The notes below the pieces were generated by a model that worked only from the letters and a program-made list of their open reading frames with translations, searched no databases and was not told where the DNA came from. This document shows positions 2,583 through 16,806 of a stretch of DNA of 64,000 nt, one piece after another. Origin of the DNA: Glutinoglossum americanum. Lineage: Eukaryota; Ascomycota; Geoglossomycetes; Geoglossales; Geoglossaceae. The translations under genes were made by a program, and so were the position numbers. The DNA is taken from contig JAGHQL010000039.1 in assembly GCA_020080175.1 (NCBI GenBank), positions 1-64,000 on the forward strand, in the 5' to 3' direction. The stretch's first letter is position 1; each line of letters begins with the position of its first letter.

Positions 2583-5370
2583 ATGGCGGGGAAGATGATG
2601 CTGTATAAGCTGGTAGTGTTAGGGGATGGAGGCGTGGGAAAGACGGGGCTGGTCATCCAAGCATGTATTTCCCTAGCTGAGGGCTGGCCTAGATATTGAC
2701 TAATCCTACTCGAAGTTTGCTCTCAACCACTTCGTTGAAACCTATGATCCCACGATTGAGGACTCTTATCGGAAGCAAGTTGTGATAGATGGTCAGTCGT
2801 GTATGCTTGAAGTCTTAGACACTGCTGGTCAAGAGGAGTACACAGCTCTTCGAGATCAGTGGATCCGTGACGGTGAAGCGTTTTTGATTGCCTACAGTAT
2901 ATCATCCCGAAGGTCATTTACACGCATCCAAAAGTTCCATCAACAAGTTCAGAGAGTCAAAGAGTCGTCGGTCCCCTCGACGGGCCCTGAAGCACCCATT
3001 GTCAATCCAGATTGGAGGGTCCCGGTATGTCTGGTGGGGAACAAGAGTGACCGTGTAACCGAACGAGAAGTATCGGTCCAGGAGGGGCTCGCACTGGCAA
3101 GGGAACTTGGCTGCGATTTTGTGGAATGCTCCGCGAAAAACTGCATCGGAGTCGACAAAGCGTTCTACGATCTTGTCCGCAATCTTCGGAGACAGCGGCA
3201 GCAATATCAAGGTCGACCTACGGCCACCACGCAGAGTACTACCTATACTGTCAAGCGGAGTCTGTGGCGCAAGAAAATATCTATACCACCCAATGAGGGA
3301 AAGAGCGAAGCTGGCCGGAAGAGACTTACCAATGCTCTCGTGAACGCAGCTCGGTCCGACCACGAAAGCGAAGTTCTAGCATTCCTCGAGGCTGGCGCCT
3401 ATGTAAATGGCCAGTCTGGGTCAGATGGTGCTGCGATCCATGCTGCATCGGCTTCTGGCCACTCAAACATCGTGAACGTCCTTCTTAAGAAGGGGGCTGC
3501 TATCAATGCTAAAGGACCCTCTGGAACTTCCCCTCTCCAAGCGGCCGCAGCGGAAGGTCACTTGGCTGTTGTTCGGTTATTACTTCACAAGGGTGCTCAG
3601 ATTGATCAGACAAGTCAACTTCATGGGACAGCGCTTTCCGCAGCTGCTTCACGTGGCCGATTAGTGGTGGTTCAACATCTGCTGAAAAAGGGCGCCAACG
3701 TCGATGTCGTTGGAGGACCATATGGAAATGCCCTTCAAGCTGCTGCATGGATAGGGTGGGTCGCTATCGTCGATGCTTTGCTTGATGCCGGTGCAGATAT
3801 CAACGCAAGAGGCCAAGGAGGCTGTACGGCCTTGCAAATAGCATCCTTTGTTGGAAATTCTGACGTTATACACACCCTTCTCAATAGAGGCGGCGCGATC
3901 AATATCGATGCGCCTGGGGGCAAATATGGATGTGCATTGAAGGCTGCCAGTGATCATGGGCACTTTGAAGCCGTTAAAATACTCCTCGAAGCTGGAGCCT
4001 CTACAAGTGCTTGGCAAGCTCCGTCTCCCAAGGCGCCCCACACTAGCGGAGAGCATGAGGATGAAAATCAGCCAGAAGCCATGTCTGAGAATGTTCAATG
4101 GCCGCTGAGTGCTGTGGCGTCATTGACGCTCGAAAGCCCAGATGACCGTTCCCACGGCCCATCGAACACGAGTATCGACATCCCACCGCAAACGGATTTG
4201 AGGGAGAGCCTCCATCGAACCACAGTGTTTAGCATAACAGAAAGACCCCACATAAATGCCGTGGGCTTCTCAGATATCAAGAACCCTGCTAACGCGGAAA
4301 TTGAGTGAGTTTCCCGTGTCACAGAAAAACTGCAATTGTTTTCTATCGTGGCTTACTTTCAAAAGCATAGTATTTGTCCATGGACTCCAGGGGCATCCAG
4401 AGGCGAGCTGGATATATCCACTGCCCCCCATCAAGAGGAGATTTTTTCGCTCACCTTCCACAGATCTGCCTGAGGTACCTCGGGAGGCCGTTTTCTGGCC
4501 TTACGATCTTCTTTCTAAACACCCCGATTTCGCTCGAGCTCGCATCTTAACATGGGGATATGATACCAAGGTCATTTCTGAATTTTTCGGGACCAGTGAT
4601 CAACAAAATATATCTCAGCATGGCAATGATTTGATGGTTGGATTGCAGCAGGAAAGGAAGAATGACGTATGTCTAGACACGGGTATTGTTTGTGGTTATC
4701 CAAATGCTCACTCAACCTAGCCGTCGCGTCCCCTAATTTTTGTGGCGCATAGTCTTGGAGGAATATTGGTCAAAGTAGTAAGCATACTCTAAAACCACTT
4801 TCTATAATCTAGATTGACTCTTTCGCAGGCGCTCGACAATTCGAAACGATCGACACATCAGCCTCAATACCTCCCAATCTACGAGTCAACAAAAGGGATC
4901 ATCTTCCTTGGCACTCCACACGGCGGAAGCACGTCAACGAATTGGGGCCTCCTTGCTAGCAACCTCACAAAACTAGCATTGCAAGGTCCCTCGGAGAGAG
5001 TGATGAAGGGTTTGAAACCAAACAACGAGCTACTTGAAAATCTCCGCAAAGCCTTCCTTCAGATGCTAGAAGATAACAACTTCAAGATACACTCTTTCTA
5101 CGAGACGAAACCTATGCTTGGAGCATACGGCCTACGTGATAGGGTAATATTTGTGGGTACCGAATTTAAAGGAGTTCAAGTTGACCATTGTTTTAGGTGG
5201 TTCCGTATGAGTCCGCTTTGGTAGGACATGCAAGACAAGAGGTCGCTCGGGGAATTAACGGTAATCATTCCGAGATTTGCAAATTTAGCAGTACGACGGA
5301 CCCAGGGTATAAAGCGGTATTTGGCGCCTTGGAAGACTACATAAAGGCAGCGAGACCAAGCAGAATTTGA
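2583..5370 (+). CDS. Ras2-type GTPase - ankyrin - SesB-like serine esterase fusion
   Basis: Six exons (2583-2660, 2716-4304, 4366-4666, 4721-4777, 4829-5143, 5197-5370) encode 837 residues. Residues 1-172 are a Ras2-like small GTPase: P-loop GDGGVGKT, switch I YDPTIEDSY, DTAGQEE with the catalytic Gln, NKSD and ECSAK all intact, but there is no C-terminal CAAX box. Residues about 205-440 are roughly seven ankyrin repeats. After a Ser/Pro-rich linker, residues about 531-837 are an alpha/beta hydrolase of the fungal SesB type: VFVHGLQGHP oxyanion region, nucleophile elbow AHSLGG, GTPHGG, and catalytic-His motif NHSEICKF. The intron at 4305-4365 joins the two halves in phase, giving DIVFVHGL exactly as in stand-alone family members. 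The first intron is GC-AG. Known: SesB domains and ankyrins occur in fungal NLR-like proteins. Inferred: a GTPase-gated esterase. Two separate genes remain the alternative. Confidence 0.78.
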
Positions 5371-5686
5371 AGGCTCCCACTGTTGCCATAAGGTGATATT
5401 GTCACTGCCCGGGGAATTTTGCTAATGCCACAGAAAATCTCGATGCTAGTAGCGCGATGGGGGTCGTTGTAATATTGAATTGTTTCCAGCGACACATTTT
5501 CGGTCTTTCTGCAGATTTACTTTTATATTCACTATGTTGTGGGTTGCTCATTCCGCTCTTCAAAAGGACGCCTCCCAACGTGGTTGGAGGACAGAAATTC
5601 ATGCACACAACTGGCCAAAACCCCCAAAAACAGAGACAACGTATGCCTTGCATTTCCCCGACCCGAAGTTTGTGATCTCGGCCAGC

Positions 5687-5986
5687 GCGGCTGACGGGTC
5701 GACGGCGCTGCACTTGGCGGCTAGGAACGGGGACGAGACGATCGCGCAACTCCTGTTAGAGAAAGGGGCGGAAGCCACCGCGATGGATATGGATGGACGC
5801 ACGGCATTGTGCCTGGCGTCCGAGAGAGGGACAGCGGAGCGATGTAGCTGCTGGAATTGGCTTCCCACTCGACACAGCAAACCCGTCATTCCACTTCTTC
5901 TCACCACCCTGAGACTTCACCCCACCGACCCTAAAGACGCAAGTGACGCTAGAATAAAGCTTATCCAAAGTGTAGGCCTATATTGA
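5687..5986 (+). pseudogene. Ankyrin-repeat gene remnant
   Basis: About 1.5 ankyrin repeats are readable (DGSTALHLAARNGD then LLLEKGAEATAMDMDGRTA), after which the repeat register is lost by a frameshift near 5838. The coding trace ends where the inverted LTR fossil begins at about 5985. No start or upstream domain is visible between 5371 and 5686. It may be the tail of a lost ankyrin gene, or a duplicated piece of one like the upstream fusion gene. Base composition is GC-rich, unlike the repeats beside it. Confidence 0.6.
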
Positions 5987-6222
5987 AGGTGCAGACCTCC
6001 AAGCGGGAGGCCAGCGGGTCATATATATACATGATGGCGAATGCATAATAGCCGGGACATTGCATTGCTGTAAGAATGCAAGCCTCCGGCATTGACTTCG
6101 GAATGTATGCTTCCGGAGTCCATATCACCATATGGATAAGACGTCGTCGACGTCACGTGAGCTAATTACCCGGCCGTGGAGGCTCAGCGGCCTCGCCGGG
6201 TAACCGATCACAAGTCATGACA
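5985..6222 (-). mobile_element. LTR fossil, family A (inverted, 5' part)
   Basis: The reverse strand begins TGTCATGACT and shows the family hallmark of a GTTACCCGG...CCGGGTAA inverted pair, then the region of the TATATATGACCC box. It is truncated against the ankyrin remnant. Old and broken. Confidence 0.65.
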
Positions 6223-7024
6223 TGTCTATGATTTCTTTGATTTTGAATAATATAATAACATGAAATGCTTATAGAATCTAAAAAAGTTTTATAGCAAGGA
6301 TGATGTAATATAAGTTGGTCAAGAATCTGCTTTTACTCATATACATGTTAAAGTACAAATAGTATAATATGTCTAATTAGAGCACTGAATAGAGAAGACT
6401 AAAAATTCTAAGGTATTTAATTTTTTGCTACTACCAAAGCTACTCAATACTCTTGATACTGATTTGTTAACATCAGAGAAAGCTTCTGAAACATATTATA
6501 CAAATCTTTAGTAGATACTTAAAGATACTATTTAATGATAGAATAAATACCTTCTACTTAAAACATTTTATAATATTCAAAATATAGATATCAATTTACT
6601 TAATAGAATACAAATTACTCCTTATATTCATCAAGTCATGTTTTTGACAAGTACTTTAGTAAAGCAAGACTATTTTGCTATTCTTTTTGAAAATTTATTC
6701 ATTTCTTTTTATAATCATTAACTAAACTTAATAATACTAATATCCACTATTAAGATATGAAACTATTCTCCTCTTTACTTTCTTTATGAATTTTTAGCTC
6801 TTGACTATAAGTTAATATATTTTTATTTATATGTTAACTATATAGTAAATTATGTGATTAAGGAAATATATAACTAATAGTATTTATAAGTACTTTGTCT
6901 TTGTCTGTAACAATAATATTTAAAAATACAACCTCTTGAATATTTATGACTTCTTATAACATCTTCAATATATACAAATAATCTTCTTCTTTTTTACTAA
7001 AAAAAAATATAGCAAAAATATCAT
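6223..7024. other. AT-rich spacer between two head-to-head LTR fossils
   Basis: Extremely AT-rich sequence without coding signal, lying between an inverted and a forward family-A LTR. Probably RIP-decayed repeat DNA. Confidence 0.5.
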
Positions 7025-7515
7025 AACTTATGATCAGTTACCCGGCGAGGTCACTGAATCTCCATAGTCAAGTAATTAACTTATATAATATTGATAATAT
7101 TTTATCCATATAGTAATATAAAATTCAGAAGCATATATTCCAAAGTCAATACTGGAAGCTTGTATTCTTATAACAATATAATCTTCTAGCTATTATACAT
7201 TTACTATCATATATATATATGACCCGCTGGCCTTCTGCTTGAAGGCCAGCAATTAGTCTTTTATATTTTCTCTCTGCTAGAATCAAGTCTATCCTACCTG
7301 CCATACATTATAAGTCAAACTGACATATAGTCGTCTTCAAACTATTGAGTCAATCTATTAGTCCTTATATACTTAAGTCTTATCTACACATAGGTCAGGT
7401 GGCTAGCCATCATTATTACTGCAAGGTATAATATCATATTATTACTGAACCTTCTAAGAACTCTTAGCATCAGAGTACTTTTGTATTATCTTGACATTGA
7501 GAGTTTTTATAAAAA
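7025..7515 (+). mobile_element. LTR fossil, family A (forward)
   Basis: Forward copy related to 9574-10044, beginning at the GTTACCCGGCGAGG block and ending near GAGAGTTTTTATA. It carries an AT-rich expansion in its first half and is strongly degraded. Broken and old; no coding part is attached. Confidence 0.65.
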
Positions 7516-8334
7516 AACATATAATTTAAATTAGTAAAATCAAGAATATCAAGTAACAACATATAAAAATGATTGGTTTTGTAAATACAATCCATCAATA
7601 ATACTTCAGAATATTACTTTAATAGAGTAAGAGATTCAAGATATGTAAAAAACAATAAAGTAATATAACTATTCTAATTAAGTTAGTAATTGAACTCCTA
7701 CTTGCCTACTTCTAATTTATGAAGTATAGCTTCAATTGAAGACTGTCCTTTTAATAGCTTTAACCTTAACTCTCTTTATAAATTATATATTATTCAAGTA
7801 AAACCTGGATTATTATTAAGAATTATAGATGAAATTTGTTTTGCAGCAATTTTAGCTTTAGTCATAGCCGCAACTTGCTTATGAACAGTAATAAGAAACT
7901 TGCAATATTAATAATATGCAATAGAATTACTTGAATTATAGTTGTGTATTAGATCTATTACAGTAAGCTTCTATTGTATTTCCTTCTCTTCATTTTTAAT
8001 TTTATCTATTTTATGTACTTGGTATCTAAATAAATATTCAGTTTTTTGACTGATTAAAGGCTTTTTACAATCAGTAACTTAGTTATGAAGCTTTTTACTC
8101 TTAACATATTAAATGTATCGAGTACAAATAATACCTCCTTACTTACACTTACTTTTACTAACTGTAACTATATAGTTATGAGTCTTAGTATAATCTTAAA
8201 AATATAAAAAAAAACTTTCATAAGTAGAAAAAGTACTACTAGGTCAAAATATTAAATCAGATAGTATATTGTAAAACTTTTGTAATTGATAAGAAAAATT
8301 TTATTATGTGCGAACTGATAACTTAAAAATAGAG
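7516..8334. other. AT-rich gene-free stretch
   Basis: No coding signal, no clear repeat boundary. Composition suggests RIP-decayed element interior. Confidence 0.45.
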
Positions 8335-9573: not shown

Positions 9574-10420
9574 TGTCATGACCCACAGTCGGTTACCCGG
9601 CGAGGCCATTTAGGCCTCCGTGGCTAGGTAACTAGCTCGGGTTATACAAATGGCGACTCGCCTATATGGTTATATGGATTCCGCAAGCGTATATCCTTAT
9701 TGCTTTATGACGTCTGTTTCATTATTGAATACCATCGTATATATAAGCAGCTCGCTGGCCTCCTGCTGGAGGTCAGCGATCAGTTCTTTTACATCTCCTG
9801 CTTACTAGAATCAAGTCTATTCTGTCTACTCTATATTTTAAACCAGGCCGATATCAAGTCGCTCTGAACCATTGACTATCAAGTCCATCCATTAGTCCTC
9901 GTACATTTAGACCTTATCTAGATGCAGACCAGTCAGCCAGCCATCGTCATCGCTGCGGGGTGCGACGTCACACTGTTATCAAAACCCCTAGATTCCTCGA
10001 TGTCGAAGTGCCTTCGTATCACCTTAGTATCGAGAGTTCTTATACTTTTGCTACTAGTCATATATCATAACATATAAAGTTACAAGAGACAAAGCTTGTA
10101 AACTTAGATCAACATAGGGTCTGTATTTAAGTCAAGCTCTCAAGCTCCTTTTCTGACTGACAGAGCTGATTCTTTAACCTCTATCGGTCAATATATTTCT
10201 TGTACATAGTTCATCTAATAGAAGCTACCCGGCAGCTCCATATCCATTTCACTGCTTAGCGTATCTACTTCTGACATCCTGCCTGACCTCCTACCAAGCC
10301 GTGATACCTATTTGAGCCTAAAAAGTTGTCTACGATCTCACGAACAGCCTCATGAGCAATCCTCCTAAATCTCAAGTGCTTGTGGTACCTTTCTGAGACC
10401 TGACACAGCCATACTCTTAT
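9574..10420 (+). mobile_element. Family A LTR (9574-10044) with internal fragment
   Basis: Forward 471-bp LTR from TGTCATGACC to GTTCTTATA, followed by about 375 bp of degraded interior related to the reverse complement of 8640-8926. No intact element can be delimited. Old and broken. Confidence 0.7.
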
Positions 10421-10565
10421 ATAAAGTTCTTATACTACTTATATGGTTTCTTCATCACTAATTATATTTCTATATAGAGTTTCTTTATGATATTATTAGT
10501 AGGGCCTTGTGAACTTCATTCATATATTATCAGCTTAATATATTATATATAAAGTAGTCTTCTCT

Positions 10566-10835
10566 TGTAACAGCTACTTATGTAAGCTAAGTCATGAAGG
10601 TTGAATGCTATGAGTATTAGGGTCAGGCTAGCCCTAAAAGGCTAATTATAAAAAAGCGAGGAGGGCTAGTTATACAGTATGATGAAGAAGGTAAACTTAT
10701 TAGTCTTAATAGTTTATCTAAGATAGTTATGGGTATTGACCAATAAGGTTCCCTTTCAGGCTCTCCTTAGTTTCTTATATATACTAATAGTTCTGAAAAG
10801 CCCAAGTGCAGGAGATCACCCAGTCTCCCTCTAAT
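10566..10835 (+). mobile_element. LTR-like fossil, family B, copy 2
   Basis: Begins TGTAACAGCTAC and parallels 8335-8604 along its length, ending near CTCTAATTA. More AT-shifted than copy 1, as expected of RIP-type decay. No coding part. Confidence 0.6.
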
Positions 10836-10859
10836 TAGTTAATAGTAAGGTCATTTATT

Positions 10860-11060
10860 AGCTCTATACAAGTTCTTTAGCTATAGTTCTTTACTTATAT
10901 ATGTATATGGTTCCTTTATCACTAGCTATACTTATAGGTTATACTTTCATGTAAAGTTTTTATGATACATGTATAGTTCATTTGCTGCTAGCTATACTTT
11001 TATGTAAAGTTCTCATGATGTCTGTATGGTTCCTCTACCAGTTATACTTCTATATGGAGT
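10860..11060. repeat. Minisatellite array, ~60-65 bp unit
   Basis: Three or more imperfect units of the type seen at 9440-9573, each with an ATACTTNTATGTAAAGTT core and a GTATGGTTCCTTTA-like core. A larger block containing this unit and an AT-rich tail (10430-10565) is duplicated at 11040-11150. Confidence 0.5.
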
Positions 11061-11149
11061 TCTTTATAATATTATTGATGAGACCTTATAAGCTCCATTC
11101 ATATGTTATTAGCTTTAGTATATTATATATAGTGTGGTCTTCTCTTATA

Positions 11150-11335
11150 CTTCGTTGACCTTTCTTAAAACTAGCTCTCCTTTTCAACTTATTCGGTGGC
11201 TAGCTGAACCCTTACTCGATAGCTACTGTAACATCCCTATACTCTACTAGCCTTCCTTAAAGTTAGCTCTCTTTCTTGACTTGTTTGATAGTCAACTAAA
11301 TTCTTATCTAGTAGCCACTATAATATAGAGCTATA
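11150..11335. repeat. Two-unit tandem repeat, ~90 bp
   Basis: Two adjacent diverged copies share CCTTAAA-TTAGCTCTC, a TCAACT or GACTTGTTT segment and a TAGCCACTATAA-like end. Only transitions dominate the differences by eye. Confidence 0.45.
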
Positions 11336-11662
11336 TTAATTATATATATTTAATTACATTAAAACTATATATACAAGAGTAAGTTAACTAATAAAATTTA
11401 AAGAATTAGTTTCATCAGTCGAAAAAGAAGCCTACATACTTAACTTAGATATAAGTTTTATGTTAGTCTATATTCTACTTTTATGACTTTACTTACTATA
11501 ACAGTAAGTAAAAAGAATAAAACAGGTTATCTTAGGTTTCCAATTTAATTATATTACTTTTATAGAGTCTCTAATATAAAGATAATACTTTATGATCAAA
11601 TTGGAAACTTAGAGTATTAAATCTATTGCTGAACTGACAATCCTCTTACTCAGGTATAAAAA

Positions 11663-11757
11663 ATTTACAAAAAATTTACCATAACTCGAACTCAGGCCCC
11701 TCAATTCTATACTTGATAAATAAGTACAGGTCAGTTTTCCATTAAGCTATAAGGCAG
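11663..11757 (-). repeat. tRNA-like / SINE-like relic with Pol III boxes
   Basis: On the reverse strand an A-box-like TAGCTTAATGG lies about 47 bp before a B-box-like GAGTTCGAGTT, the spacing of a tRNA gene, and a T-run follows. I could not fold a convincing cloverleaf with an anticodon, so I read it as the head of a SINE or a decayed tRNA gene rather than a working tRNA. Confidence 0.4.
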
Positions 11758-11843
11758 TTAAAATATTCTTTACCAAATTTAATTATATGTGTATGCAAAA
11801 CAGTATATACAAACAAAACACATTTTCTATAGCAGTCGCCTGT

Positions 11844-11980
11844 TGAAGTGGCCACCGCGCAGCTTTTGGAGTGGCCGCACAGATTTTGGAGTGGCCGCGC
11901 AGATTTTGGAGTGGCCGCGCAAATAGGAGTGGCCGCGAAAAATTTTGGGGTGGCCGCGCAAATTGTTGGAGTGGCTGTAC
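11844..11980. repeat. GC-rich minisatellite, ~20 bp unit
   Basis: About seven imperfect units of TTTTGGAGTGGCCGCGCAGA stand out sharply in GC content from the surrounding AT-rich DNA. The array lies at the junction between the retroelement graveyard and the GC-rich coding island that starts at 12417. Confidence 0.8.
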
Positions 11981-12416
11981 CGAGACCCTAGTTTTTAAAA
12001 GCCGAAATGCCGAGACTTTCAACAAAAACTTGTAAATACCTGTAGCATTTGCGCCGGGTAACATTGGGAAATAACGTGGTTGGCTACTACCCAACGGATC
12101 GGCACACCATGGCTTTTCCACTACACTACTACTCATTTGATTTTACTTCTTATCGCTATCATTAGCTTCCAACAAGGCCTTGGGGTCGGTGGTTTGGGCA
12201 TAGCGCATAACATCTGGGTAGCGGGTCATCAGGAGTCTAGGAGCACATGGCATGCCTCTCGGCCTGAACAAGGAAATCATCAACTCCAAGAAGAGTGATG
12301 ATAGTAAAGTTGTGTTAGCGTTACAGAAAGCAAGACGAGCCGTCGGACTGCTGAGGGTCTTCTTTCTTGGGAAAGATTTGAACCCAATCGAAAAGGCTTA
12401 ATAGGACAAGAAGAAA
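11981..12416. other. Gene-free stretch before the GC-rich island
   Basis: No supportable gene. The reverse strand near 12150-12240 can be read as a short peptide-like trace (TRYPDVMRYAQTTDPKALLE), which may be the end of a decayed gene, but nothing extends it. Confidence 0.35.
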
Positions 12417-13964
12417 ATGGAATTCAAGGAGGTAAAAGAGGACAAGCTTTGGGGGGAAAAGCCATCCACACTATCCAAGGGGGACATCCTGCGCCCCACC
12501 TCAGCGGCTGAGCTAGGTGCCAAGCTGGATGCGGTCATGGCGATTATCAGACGCCCTAAGCAAATCATAGCCCTGTTCGACGGCGAGATTGATGACTTCT
12601 TGGCTCTCGGGCGCCCCCTCCCCAATCGCACCGTGATCACTGCCGGTCCTAAGCCCGATTTTCTGGCACGGGAGCTACAAAGGGGCGCACACTATGCCCT
12701 GCCCGGCCTACCCACCGTCACCGGTTCGCAGATCGAGGCTGCCGGCGGTATGGACCCCATCTTGGGTAAGGATGCAACACCGGCGCAGGTGTCCGCCCGC
12801 GCACGCGCCATGTACGAGACCCTTACTCAGCTAACCGTGCATGCAACGTCCGCGCGCCTCGATTCGGGCACTGATGTTACCATGGCAGCTGGGCTCTCCT
12901 TGCTCTTGCGATACGGCGTCGAGGCGGCTCGACTGGCAGTAGTCGCCCTGTTCGAACAGGACCTGTAGTTTCAGCACCAGCAGCTGAAAGATACCGTGGC
13001 TACGGGGTACGCGCAACAAGCCGCCGCGCAGTTCGAGGCAGCGTTCATGAGACTGCAAGAGGAGTGCCCTCCCACCGGCAATGAGGTCGTCGTTGTTGCT
13101 ACTAGCCTAGCAAAAAAGAGCGTGCATGACGATGGTCCCTTGGAGATCGGTGGTGCCAATTTTGCAGCCAACCCGTTTGCGGCGTTAGTCTTAGTAGCTA
13201 GCGGTGTTGAAGTGGTACTGTCGCATCGGTCGCAATCCGGACCCATCTCTTCGTTGACGCCGAGCTGCATCGCGAGACAGCTGCAGACAGCCCAGACGGA
13301 CGCCGAACGCGGGTTGTGGGAGGAGGTCCAGCAGCTGCCTAACTCCTTTTTCGAGTCAACAGGCCCCGTGGCGCGGCGTTCAGCGTCGTTCAACCTGGCA
13401 CAGTTCATCAAGTGGGCCGAGAGGGCTACGAGAGGTGATGCCAGCTTCTCGCGCTGGGACACGCTAACGAATTTCCTCGAGGAACTTACCTTTGAACAAG
13501 ACCGGGTGCGCATTGACGAGGTGCTAGTGGGTGATCCGGCAATGGAGGCGCTCGTCGCCTCCGCCGATGGAACGACGCCGCTCGACACATTAGAGCCGCA
13601 CTTGTTCGCGCAGAAGCCTGCACAGACCAGCGCTGATGCATCCGGCATGATCTCAATGCTAAACAGTATCATCAAGGGCTTCAATGGCATTGCAGAGTAT
13701 GAGGCAGTCCTGACCGGGCCAGTAGACTCCGAGCCGATTCCAGTGATGCCGGACAGAGTGATGGCGACAGTATGTGACCCAGTGTCTGCGCTTAACCGGC
13801 GGTTGAAGGAGCTGGGTGCCGCCGCTAATTATTTGCATGGGCCGGCGCAGACGGCAGAAATTAGCCGCATCACGAAGTGTCTAGATGCAGCGAGAGGAGC
13901 CGTCATGAGGGCTTCTGGCCAAGGCCCGGTGGCCGCGAGCGGCTGGTCAAAAGCTAGCCCCTAA
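12417..13964 (+). CDS. GC-rich coding island, product not recognised
   Basis: Two adjacent open stretches on the plus strand have clear coding character (high third-position GC, Ala-rich helical protein), but the locus does not read as one uninterrupted frame, with about one break. I recognise no domain: the first part has segments such as PKQIIALFDGEIDDFLALG; the second is a mostly helical, Ala/Glu-rich sequence without signal peptide or membrane segments. Codon use is unlike the RIP-affected DNA on both sides and closer to the bacterial-looking catalase gene 0.8 kb downstream. Possible origins are horizontal transfer, an unusual mobile or virus-derived element, or a host orphan; the sequence alone does not decide. 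Confidence 0.45.
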
Positions 13965-14804
13965 ATAAACTGCCGCTACTATGGACTATTCACGGGTACC
14001 CACATTTCATTCAGAGTGTCACCCTGGCATAGACCGATTCTCCGGACGATCATTATTTACTATGGTTGCCGACGTAAATTTTGTTAGCAGGGTGTAGCGA
14101 AGACAGGGGGGAAAAGTCAGTGTGACCAAACTACCTAGAAATGCCGAAGCAAACTTACCCGAGTTGAGATGAACATGTACAAGTATAGACTTTATGAGAA
14201 TCAGGATTGACTTACCTGGTTTTTTTTTACAGAAATTTAAAGTAACAATATAACAAATTCAAGAATAAAAAAAATAATATACTTTATTTATTATATGAAA
14301 AACTCCTTGGAGTCCTTTCTGGCTGCTGAGTCCTGAGTCATCTTCACTTAAAGTCCTTTCTAATTCATGACAGGAAGGATCCACCCTCCGTTCTGCACTT
14401 TGACCGTCGCTTAGGCCCGGAAAGGTTCCTGGAATGCCATCTTCTAGGACCTTCTATACTACGTTCGACTCTTTCTATTGAACACTTTTCTTTCTAAATT
14501 TCGCAACGCTACAGTCAGTAGCGAAATCGGCTTCCGCCCAAGCCTAGCCCACGACTTTGTTTCAACCAGCTGCCAAGACATTAGCCGCCAAAGCTATACC
14601 CTATATAGTTAGTACTCATCGAACTTTCTAGCACCTGGCCTCAACAACACAATCAACTTCACCTACGTTTCAGCTTCTACTTTAACACTTTCCAAGAGAC
14701 AGTTCTGGATTAGAAGGCCTGGCCCATCCCATCGTGGTCGTACCCGCCGCCATCGACAGCCCTGTTCCTCCTCCGCCTCCGCCGGCCGCCCGCCTGGTAG
14801 CACG
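13965..14804. other. Intergenic region with a fungal-looking promoter
   Basis: An AT-rich patch (14220-14290) is followed by ordinary fungal intergenic sequence. A TATATAG motif near 14600 and a C/A/T-rich leader (AACACAATCAACTTCACC) precede the catalase gene, suggesting that gene has a eukaryotic promoter although its coding part looks bacterial. Confidence 0.4.
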
Positions 14805-15998
14805 ATGTCCGCCCTGCAGGCCCTGCACGATTTCCTCGTCGGCGCGATGCATATCGAGCGGCGTATCGATCCGTTCTTCCGTCCGTTCGTCGACGTGATC
14901 GCACGCGAGCCGCTCACGCGCCTGGTGCAGGCGCTGATCCGTGCCCGCCTGCCAGACAACGAACTCGCGCTCGCGGAGGAGCGGCCCATCGCGGGCGAGG
15001 ACGAATTGATCGCCGACATCATCGCCAACATGTCGCAGTACCTGCGCACGCACTATACCGCCGGCACGGCGCAGCGCGGCGGCAACACAAAGACCCACGG
15101 CGTGGTGCGCGGCGAGCTGGTGATCCACGACGACCTGCCAGAGAACCTGCGCCACGGCCTATTCGAGCAGCCGCGCCGATACCCGGTCTGGGTTCGCTTC
15201 AGCGGCCCGGGGCCGGCGCTGCCACCCGATATCGAGGATGTCGGCGTGCTGAGCATCGGCGTCAAGGTGATGGGCGTGCCGGGCCCCAAGCTGCTAGAAG
15301 ACGAGCGCTTCACGCAGGACTTCACCGGCATCAGCACCCCAGTCTTCACCACGCCCGACCTAATCGCCAACGCGAAGCTGCAAGCTGCCATCGTCCGCGG
15401 CTTGCCGCTGTTCTACTTCATCGGCCCCGGCGGCCATTTCCTCGATGCGCTGATGCAGGGCCTTTGGTCGCGCACGCAGACGAGCCCGCTTGAGACCGAG
15501 TACTGGAGCTGCGTGCCCTACCTGCTAGGCGAAGGCCAGGCGATGCAATACCGCTTCCGGCCGGTGGGCGCCGCTCGCAGCCGCATTCCCGGTTTGCCAG
15601 GCCGCCCTTCGGACAATTACCTGCGCGATGCCATGGCACGCACGCTCACCGCGCAGCCTGCGCGCTTCGAGATGCTGCTGCAGTTGCAGAGTGACGCGCG
15701 ACGCATGCCCATCGAGCATGCATCGGTGCGCTGGGCCGCGCCCGACAGCCCGCCCGTGGTTGTCGCGACGCTCGAACTGCCGAGCCAGCGCTTCGACACC
15801 GACGCGCAGCTCGCGTTCGCCAGCCGGTTATCGATCAACCCGTGGCATTGCCTGCCGGCGCATCGCCCGCTGGGCAACCAGAACCGCGGACGGCTCAGGA
15901 TCTACCAGACGCTATCGCTGTTGCGCCAGCACATGAACGCCACGCCGCACGTCGAGCCGGACGGCAGCGAGACCTTCGACCCGCCGTTGGCGCCGTAG
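14805..15998 (+). CDS. Catalase-fold heme protein (y4iL-like), probable bacterial transfer
   Basis: One intron-free frame of 397 residues. It matches the catalase-like y4iL-type family of bacteria: THGVVRGEL with the likely distal His at 98, YPVWVRFSGPG at about 123, and the C-terminal NPWHCLPAHRPLGNQNR...RIYQ, where Tyr at about 367 is the probable proximal heme ligand. Members are shorter than classical catalases (about 480 or more residues); true catalase activity is not proven for all of them, and some relatives act on lipid peroxides. Third codon positions are almost all G or C, quite unlike the surrounding fungal genes, and there is no signal peptide. Together with the lack of introns and the repeat-rich surroundings this points to a recent transfer from a GC-rich proteobacterium. 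The frame is whole, so it has escaped RIP-type decay. Confidence 0.85.
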   Translation: MSALQALHDFLVGAMHIERRIDPFFRPFVDVIAREPLTRLVQALIRARLPDNELALAEERPIAGEDELIADIIANMSQYLRTHYTAGTAQRGGNTKTHGVVRGELVIHDDLPENLRHGLFEQPRRYPVWVRFSGPGPALPPDIEDVGVLSIGVKVMGVPGPKLLEDERFTQDFTGISTPVFTTPDLIANAKLQAAIVRGLPLFYFIGPGGHFLDALMQGLWSRTQTSPLETEYWSCVPYLLGEGQAMQYRFRPVGAARSRIPGLPGRPSDNYLRDAMARTLTAQPARFEMLLQLQSDARRMPIEHASVRWAAPDSPPVVVATLELPSQRFDTDAQLAFASRLSINPWHCLPAHRPLGNQNRGRLRIYQTLSLLRQHMNATPHVEPDGSETFDPPLAP

Positions 15999-16806
15999 GC
16001 GTGCGTCGTTACATGGTCGTGAGGTAGTGCAAAGCGCGCACGCCGGGGACCCACTCTAGGTATCCCAATCGCGGTGACAAGCAGACTTCGATGCTGGTAC
16101 GCAGGAACCTATAAAGACATAACGGACATGAAACGAGGTCATATGGCTGCATTTGAGGAAATCACTGCTGAATTCCCGCCCATGTTCGAAGACGTAAAAA
16201 GGCTGGCCGAAGACACTTTTCGACACCGGAAGGCTCTTCACAAGGACTTATAAGAAGCCCGACGATCGTGACAGAATGTACGACAGTATGACCAATGCAT
16301 TCGAGATAACAATCAAGGCTTATCAGTAGAGGAATGAAAGGACAGGAGATGAGTAAGTTGAATATGTACTTTATTTTTACGATGGCTATAGCAAGATCAT
16401 CTTGTTTAACTAGATTAGCTTTATCCTGAGTAGAATATGTATAAAATTAACTGATAGATAGAAAATAAGATAGTGAAATTTGTTGTCGATAATATAAATC
16501 TTTTGTTGAAATATTTATATGAAGTTCTAAAGTATTTTTTAGACCTGTAAATAATTTACTAATTAGTTTATACTAATTATCTATTTGAAAGTTAAAATAT
16601 TAATAATAAAATGATTTGAAATATATGTTTGTTTAAGGTTATTTTAGATAAGTAAGTAAGATAAAGTTTTAAAATTATACTATCCTGTTTTTTACTATAA
16701 TTATTATTTTTTTTTCTTAAGTTTTTTATATAGTTTTACTAATAATTGAAAATAATATTATGAAATTGTTGTATCTATAAATAGGTATTGTTTTAGTATG
16801 AAAATT
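15999..16806. other. Intergenic, partly AT-rich
   Basis: A 41-codon frame at 16129-16254 (MKRGHMAAFEEITAEFPPMF...) has coding-like composition but no homologue I know; it may be a gene fragment. From about 16350 to 16800 the sequence is AT-rich and featureless. Confidence 0.35.

Follow-up and report, generated by a model that had tools for sequence, protein, structure and literature searches.

Fungal NLRs share three kinds of parts, an effector, a nucleotide switch and repeats, as in P0060, which carries a SesB domain, a NACHT domain and ankyrins. Roco and DAP-kinase type proteins contain ankyrins, a Roc GTPase and a kinase. According to the excerpts of PMC4986451, sesB-like, PNP_UDP, PKinase and Peptidase S8 domains are N-terminal classes of fungal NLRs, and repeat-number polymorphism is reported for the NLRs of Podospora. 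In Neurospora PLP-1, which combines NB-ARC with a patatin lipase, killing requires both the lipase and the nucleotide site (excerpts of PMC12881547). In bacterial conflict systems, an AP-GTPase of the Ras-like clade may take over the position of the STAND NTPase (excerpts of PMC8195603), and AP-GTPases are only distantly related to Ras (excerpts of PMC7159879).

No description of a Ras-ankyrin-effector family was found in the literature searched (open-licence papers, no preprints). The word GTPase is absent from the excerpts of PMC9815663, PMC4986451, PMC12258605 and PMC12881547; matches to "ras" in the excerpts of PMC9815663, PMC4986451 and PMC1325252 are names (RasMol, Rast, Rasmussen); and the excerpts of PMC4835503 have no "ras" and two uses of GTPase, both in a general sense. 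The parts are known, and their combination, its repeated rebuilding and the placing of a true Ras at the STAND position are undescribed within these open-licence papers.

We present here a gene of Glutinoglossum americanum and the protein family to which it belongs. The window, that is, the whole stretch of DNA analysed, comprises 64,000 nucleotides (positions 1 to 64,000 of the forward strand of contig JAGHQL010000039.1, assembly GCA_020080175.1), and coordinates are those of the window. With moderate confidence, we read the product as a single chain of a Ras2-derived switch, a rigid ankyrin arm and a C-terminal SesB esterase, from a family with interchangeable NLR-type effectors, and we propose that it works under GTP gating.

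Protein searches

Three protein searches, each scoring about 8000 candidates, gave 215, 3224 and 898 matches, the best 120 of which were listed in each case. The three listings were pooled into 277 distinct proteins, so that family counts given below are lower bounds and no survey.

Gene structure

The gene lies on the forward strand at 2583-5370 and has six exons, all with fitting phases, and an 837-residue product. An earlier note on this DNA had given these coordinates, this product length and an intron at 4305-4365 that recreates DIVFVHGL, all of which were reproduced on translation. Exon 1 (2583..2660) contains the start codon and the Ras P-loop GDGGVGKT, located by translation and Pfam. 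Intron 1 (2661..2715, 55 bases) is GC-AG and is needed for the in-frame join of P-loop and switch I; the other four introns are GT-AG, and all five are in phase. Exon 2 (2716..4304) encodes the remaining Ras, a linker, the ankyrin array, a further linker and the first esterase strand. Intron 2 (4305..4365, GTGAGT...CAAAAG) marks the ankyrin/esterase join, after which exon 3 (4366..4666) encodes DIVFVHGLQGH and then further SesB-type hydrolase. Intron 3 (4667-4720) is followed by exon 4 (4721..4777), with the nucleophile elbow AHSLGG and its Ser codon at 4751-4753; intron 4 (4778-4828) by exon 5 (4829..5143), a further hydrolase part; and intron 5 (5144-5196) by exon 6 (5197..5370), with the probable acid Glu at 5209-5211, the catalytic His at 5266-5268 and the stop codon at 5368-5370.

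The annotated G. americanum protein FGG08_002523 (P0001) is identical to the window protein over 630 and 162 residues. This public model starts with a different exon that has no Ras P-loop, and the exon carrying the nucleophile Ser is missing from it. The reading given here is fuller than that record, and automatic annotation of this kind would conceal the GTPase and esterase active sites alike.

By comparison with NACHT-type SesB proteins, GFSDIKNPANAEI is encoded before intron 2 and DIVFVHGLQGHP after it. The pre-intron, N-terminal part of the esterase, NAVGFSDIKNPANAEI (4255..4304, forward strand), is like the SesB opening in P0065, P0091 and P0116, NACHT-type proteins whose N-terminal SesB opens with a GFS/GLS stretch and then D(I/L)VFVHGLQGHP; P0060 is similar. 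The pattern was present in four of six NACHT-type SesB proteins compared, P0088 and P0112 not matching. The ankyrin exon therefore already codes for the esterase start, and the esterase becomes complete only through splicing.

Among the best 120 of 215 matches, relatives aligned over at least 98% of length are 47-68% identical to the window protein, and three-part relatives are annotated in several ascomycetes, including Trapelia and Glarea. We take the classes represented to be Geoglossomycetes, Lecanoromycetes (Trapelia), Leotiomycetes (Glarea) and several Sordariomycetes. The proteome search that the earlier note had proposed thus found the fusion in many other genomes, and the objection that no other genome might carry it falls. 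Compared with P0002 (Trapelia coarctata), the esterase is 78% identical, the ankyrins 76%, Ras 69% and the pre-esterase linker 30%, a profile that reads as functional domains held by a loose linker.

The alternative that a false intron merges two neighbouring genes draws on the fallibility of gene models in this region, P0001 being an instance. It was rejected because the esterase strand, within the ankyrin exon, precedes the intron and because the same join recurs in independent genomes. Further, the kinase and phosphorylase relatives P0046, P0050, P0122, P0123 and P0148 are each one long protein encoded on a contig of >50 kb, and SesB relatives from the same sources break off at the intron. 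We regard such an artefact as highly improbable. The claim of a single spliced protein is upheld by its six in-phase exons, the place of the first esterase strand in exon 2 and the recurrence of the join across genomes, and 2583-5370 is accordingly read, from sequence, as predicting one protein with a complete Ras, an ankyrin array and a complete SesB-type alpha/beta hydrolase.

Ras domain

The Ras GTPase domain (2607..3189, forward strand, intron 1 inside) spans residues 9-184 (Pfam Ras, E 6.7e-51) and contains the P-loop, switch I YDPTIED, DTAGQ, NKxD and SAK motifs. In a sequence comparison with solved structures, the 60 top matches are K-Ras or N-Ras. Its likeness to canonical fungal Ras2 consists in 83% identity to the genome's own Ras2 (contig C27), against 58% to its own Ras1, and in the position of intron 1, which is that of the first intron of the same Ras2; the designation as a Ras2-type GTPase is thereby borne out. 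The window protein differs from Ras2 in its fusion to ankyrins and an effector and in lacking a CAAX anchor, as had been noticed before: the chain runs on into the ankyrins and ends ARPSRI, and the genome's own Ras2 ends CIIL. A basic and aromatic patch, KRSLWRKKISIPP (3253..3291, forward strand), lies between Ras and the ankyrins and has similar counterparts in many relatives; conceivably, patches of this type make a membrane contact that replaces the CAAX lipid anchor.

In the family alignment of 88 rows, which excludes P0071 and P0196, 87 rows retain Q61, 83 N116, 85 K117 and 84 D119. The first exon is absent from many rows, and among readable ones T35 is kept in 65 of 65 and G12 in 31 of 34. 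N116 is replaced in 5 of the 88 rows, so some members are altered at the nucleotide site. Judging by this alignment, the family keeps Q61, the residue required for GTP hydrolysis.

The Ras domain could also be an integrated bait, a copy of the cell's Ras such that a microbial enzyme or a foreign regulator allele touching Ras triggers the effector. This is the chief rival to the Ras-switch reading, and it would account for the nearness of the window Ras to the resident Ras2 with switch I intact, and for the recruitment of both Ras2-like and Ras1-like copies (76 and 13 of 89 rows are nearer the genome's own Ras2 and Ras1, respectively). A bait is also in keeping with the tree built from Ras alone, in which fusions and free Ras2 proteins are intermixed with weak support and few well-supported branches, and putative integrated domains, including kinases, are reported in Sordariales NLRs (excerpts of PMC12258605). 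A decoy would, however, need a second switch, and the Pfam scan of the window protein found no NACHT or NB-ARC, its NTPase matches being Ras and an overlapping Roc only; nor would a decoy predict the retention of Q61. The conservation of catalytic residues appears to favour a switch over a decoy, without settling the question, and we consider a bait rather unlikely.

SesB-type esterase

The esterase piece alone scores 21.1 bits against Pfam DUF676 (cut-off 20.3). In the whole protein, no hydrolase exceeds its curated cut-off, DUF676 being unlisted at E 0.001 and Hydrolase_4 sub-threshold only. The Pfam families expected in the earlier note were therefore recovered in part: Ras and Ank_2 were found in the whole protein, but DUF676 only in the esterase piece by itself. 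The SesB assignment rests on homology to the hydrolase domains of NACHT-type proteins, and the effector is, as had been claimed, like that of SesB-NACHT proteins (57% identity to P0060 and 55% to P0065). The catalytic Ser is in AHSLGG, the His in NGNHSE, and the acid is probably the Glu of VVPYESA. With this nucleophile, the His motif, the Ras motifs and the ankyrin array all present, the three parts are intact, in agreement with the first description.

In the family alignment of 24 esterase rows, the nucleophile Ser is kept in 17 of 17 readable rows and the His in 20 of 21. Incomplete gene models are common in the family, and 7 of the 24 rows have a gap at the nucleophile. The acid varies more, with E or D in 19 of the 21 family rows readable there and E in 4 of 6 NLR rows. 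Compared by sequence with solved structures, the esterase had a single weak match (E 0.029), taken as chance. Foldseek and VIA-align with the P0002 model listed 50 matches each, all to Ras-type or ankyrin structures, and say nothing on the esterase fold. The esterase of P0002 (651-838) matches the PADLOC model DUF626_VIII (E 1.9e-9), and the phosphorylase of P0046 matches the PADLOC model "Effector of the PN superfamily" (E 3e-15); taken at sequence level, these matches would link effectors of the family to bacterial defence effectors.

Ankyrin array

The ankyrin array (3322..4047, forward strand; about residues 229-470) has seven repeats by comparison with P0002. Pfam finds three Ank_2 stretches (E 2.2e-32) from residue 235 on, and the predicted structure of P0002 has seven helix pairs (mean pLDDT 81; pTM 0.45, at which domain packing is not readable). 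Across species, the aligned array is 200-242 residues long in 89 of 90 Ras-ankyrin proteins, the fragment P0071 having 66. In all 75 labelled members, the array of some family member bearing a different effector is closer than any of the 187 proteins outside the family; this set of 75 includes the window protein, counts rows that stop at the SesB intron as SesB and leaves out P0071 and the 15 effector-less proteins. As far as these proteins show, the array is one inherited homologous module and not a separate gathering of common repeats. Because its length is nearly fixed, unlike the polymorphic repeats of Podospora NLRs, a role as hypervariable sensor is unsupported, and its conservation likewise seems to argue against a fast-evolving direct sensor.

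One core with exchanged effectors

The Ras-ankyrin core is present in at least 90 of the 277 listed proteins. Its effectors are SesB in 23 (one a fragment), a kinase in 16, a nucleoside phosphorylase in 11 and a subtilase in 2 (one partial); 23 more end at the SesB intron (labelled by their tail pattern), and 15 have no recognised effector. The ends at the SesB intron are as expected for sources in which introns were not modelled. Three of these labels are confirmed by Pfam matches: P0142 has Peptidase_S8 (E 1.7e-16), P0135 has Pkinase (2.3e-34) and P0129 has PNP_UDP_1 (1.8e-14). The subtilase of P0144 is below the Pfam cut-off and aligns with that of P0142 (E 1.9e-35), with two of three catalytic motifs reached before its end. 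Not counted as family were P0085, with a COR domain and its parts in reverse, and P0090 and P0087, in which the additional domains seem to belong to adjacent genes.

The cleanest swap is that between P0135 and P0144, which share 59% identity in the 588 columns that run from Ras through the linker and then continue as a kinase and the start of a subtilase, respectively. On the tree of ankyrin arrays, from which the partial P0071 was excluded as from the other trees, the effector labels need five changes (the minimum for four classes being three). Removing the SesB-stopped rows together with P0186, whose hydrolase is divergent (30% identical), leaves the count at five, and dropping P0144 as well lowers it to four; the Ras-plus-ankyrin tree gives five as well. 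Ras type needs four changes on the ankyrin tree, or three without the long-branched P0260, the type of P0142 being ambiguous. Since both effector and Ras type change on the ankyrin tree, both ends of the molecule have been exchanged on the same arm.

Effectors of the family have homologues in NLRs beyond SesB: P0046 has a phosphorylase that shares 50-51% identity with those of the NACHT-ankyrin proteins P0240 and P0208. In a single JGI protein of 583 aa, P0117, a HeLo-type domain (PF14479) stands ahead of a Ras2-like one; this may be a further case of an NLR-type effector fused to Ras, here on the opposite side.

Relatives in the same genome

Searches of this genome found one Ras-ankyrin-SesB locus and no second Ras-ankyrin locus. 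A recent local duplication was considered and rejected, the best SesB relatives elsewhere in the genome being 36-39% identical (42% in a few short matches) and a second Ras-ankyrin locus being absent from the search results. The genome has 156 NPHP3_N matches (NACHT-type; some rows are parts of one gene), and SesB matches adjoin NACHT-type matches on contigs C91, C30 and C137.

A third, truncated Ras2-like copy (L054, 4808-5266, contig C103) has NNSH for NKSD; it seems degenerate and adjoins what looks, by eye, like a Copia-like retroelement. By eye, no effector was seen fused to this copy or to Ras1 on contig C252. A kinase on contig C93 (L057, 1342-3435, reverse strand), which shares 50% identity with the kinase of P0135 and in whose open frame no Ras or ankyrins were seen by eye, is a possible source of the kinase effector class.

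An ordinary signalling enzyme, in which Ras only serves to position or adjust a lipid esterase that signals in growth or stress and has no role in immunity or death, would fit the single locus, the near-fixed length of the array and the conservation relative to P0002 (esterase 78%, ankyrins 76%), which is like that of a conserved signalling gene. It leaves unexplained the NLR-class effectors with NLR homologues, phosphorylase and subtilase among them, and we think it unlikely. The single locus found here speaks for either a conserved guard or an executioner acting below the Ras pathway.

Comparison with known systems

The window family meets fungal NLRs in having a recognised effector class (SesB here; phosphorylase, kinase and subtilase in relatives). 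It differs in that the switch is a Ras GTPase, the order is switch, repeats, effector, and the repeat array is of near-fixed length. The reversal of domain order described in the earlier note is correct, the effector being C-terminal and the repeats internal. Because it has no STAND domain and its order is reversed, the window protein is not an NLR by definition. By analogy, it may work like an NLR with Ras in the place of NACHT. The exchange of switch, as originally proposed, gains from the finding that the same core carries three other NLR-type effectors; a hypervariable ankyrin sensor is not supported. Ras is not known to form oligomers with itself in the manner of STAND NTPases, and NLR-like assembly is for that reason not simply to be assumed.

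With bacterial AP-GTPase conflict systems, the protein shares the principle of a Ras-like GTPase at the STAND position of an effector system; it differs in having a nearly unchanged Ras2 or Ras1, in occurring in fungi and in its other effectors. Roco and DAP-kinase proteins also join ankyrins, a Ras-like GTPase and an effector, and the kinase members of the family are closest to them in content. Membership in that group was rejected: Pfam finds no COR in the window protein, and the Roc match overlaps a canonical Ras domain. PLP-1 offers a parallel to the nucleotide-gated lipase action proposed for the window protein.

Proposed mechanism

In the resting state, Ras would be bound to GDP and the ankyrin arm would keep the effector inactive or off its substrate. 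The trigger would be a Ras exchange factor that loads GTP, or else a Ras GAP that is lost; the GTP form would shift the contacts of the ankyrin arm and release the esterase, and the freed enzyme would attack lipids, by which the cell compartment may be altered or killed. The sequences establish the architecture, unbroken active sites in GTPase and hydrolase, the exchange of effectors and the recruitment of both types of Ras; we infer the autoinhibition, the GTP gating, the lipid substrate, the cell-death outcome and the role in stress or non-self responses. The model can be tested directly, as GTP on the fused Ras should turn on the enzyme in the same chain.

More tentatively, and with less confidence than even odds would imply, ascomycetes may possess intracellular receptors or executioners of a second class that does without STAND, in which genuine Ras GTPases, drawn from Ras1 as well as Ras2, are connected through one conserved ankyrin arm to swappable cell-death effectors. 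If so, tampering with Ras or activating it would directly fire a lipase, nucleotidase, kinase or protease, and Ras, usually a membrane-bound relay to separate effectors, would have become the built-in switch of a swappable cassette, with two of its paralogues. Searches based on NACHT or NB-ARC would miss such a family, because fungal immune-like receptors are defined by those switches.

Neighbourhood of the gene

A short open frame directly downstream (5453-5986, forward strand) reads like an ankyrin remnant, DGSTALHLAARNGDETIAQLLLEKGAEATAMDMDGRTALCLASERGTAE, and is perhaps a relic of another repeat protein. Near the gene are AT-rich stretches at 6000-8000 (G+C 0.28) and 10000-12000 (G+C 0.34), which we take to resemble mutation-degraded fungal repeats. 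The region 12001-16000 has a G+C of 0.57-0.58, is possibly foreign DNA and contains an open frame at 14613-15998 (forward strand) that reads like one for a catalase-related haem protein. On the reverse strand at 785-1832, open frames with a signal-like start, a Ser/Pro/Thr-rich stretch and a transmembrane-like stretch followed by a basic segment have, by eye, a product like a membrane protein.
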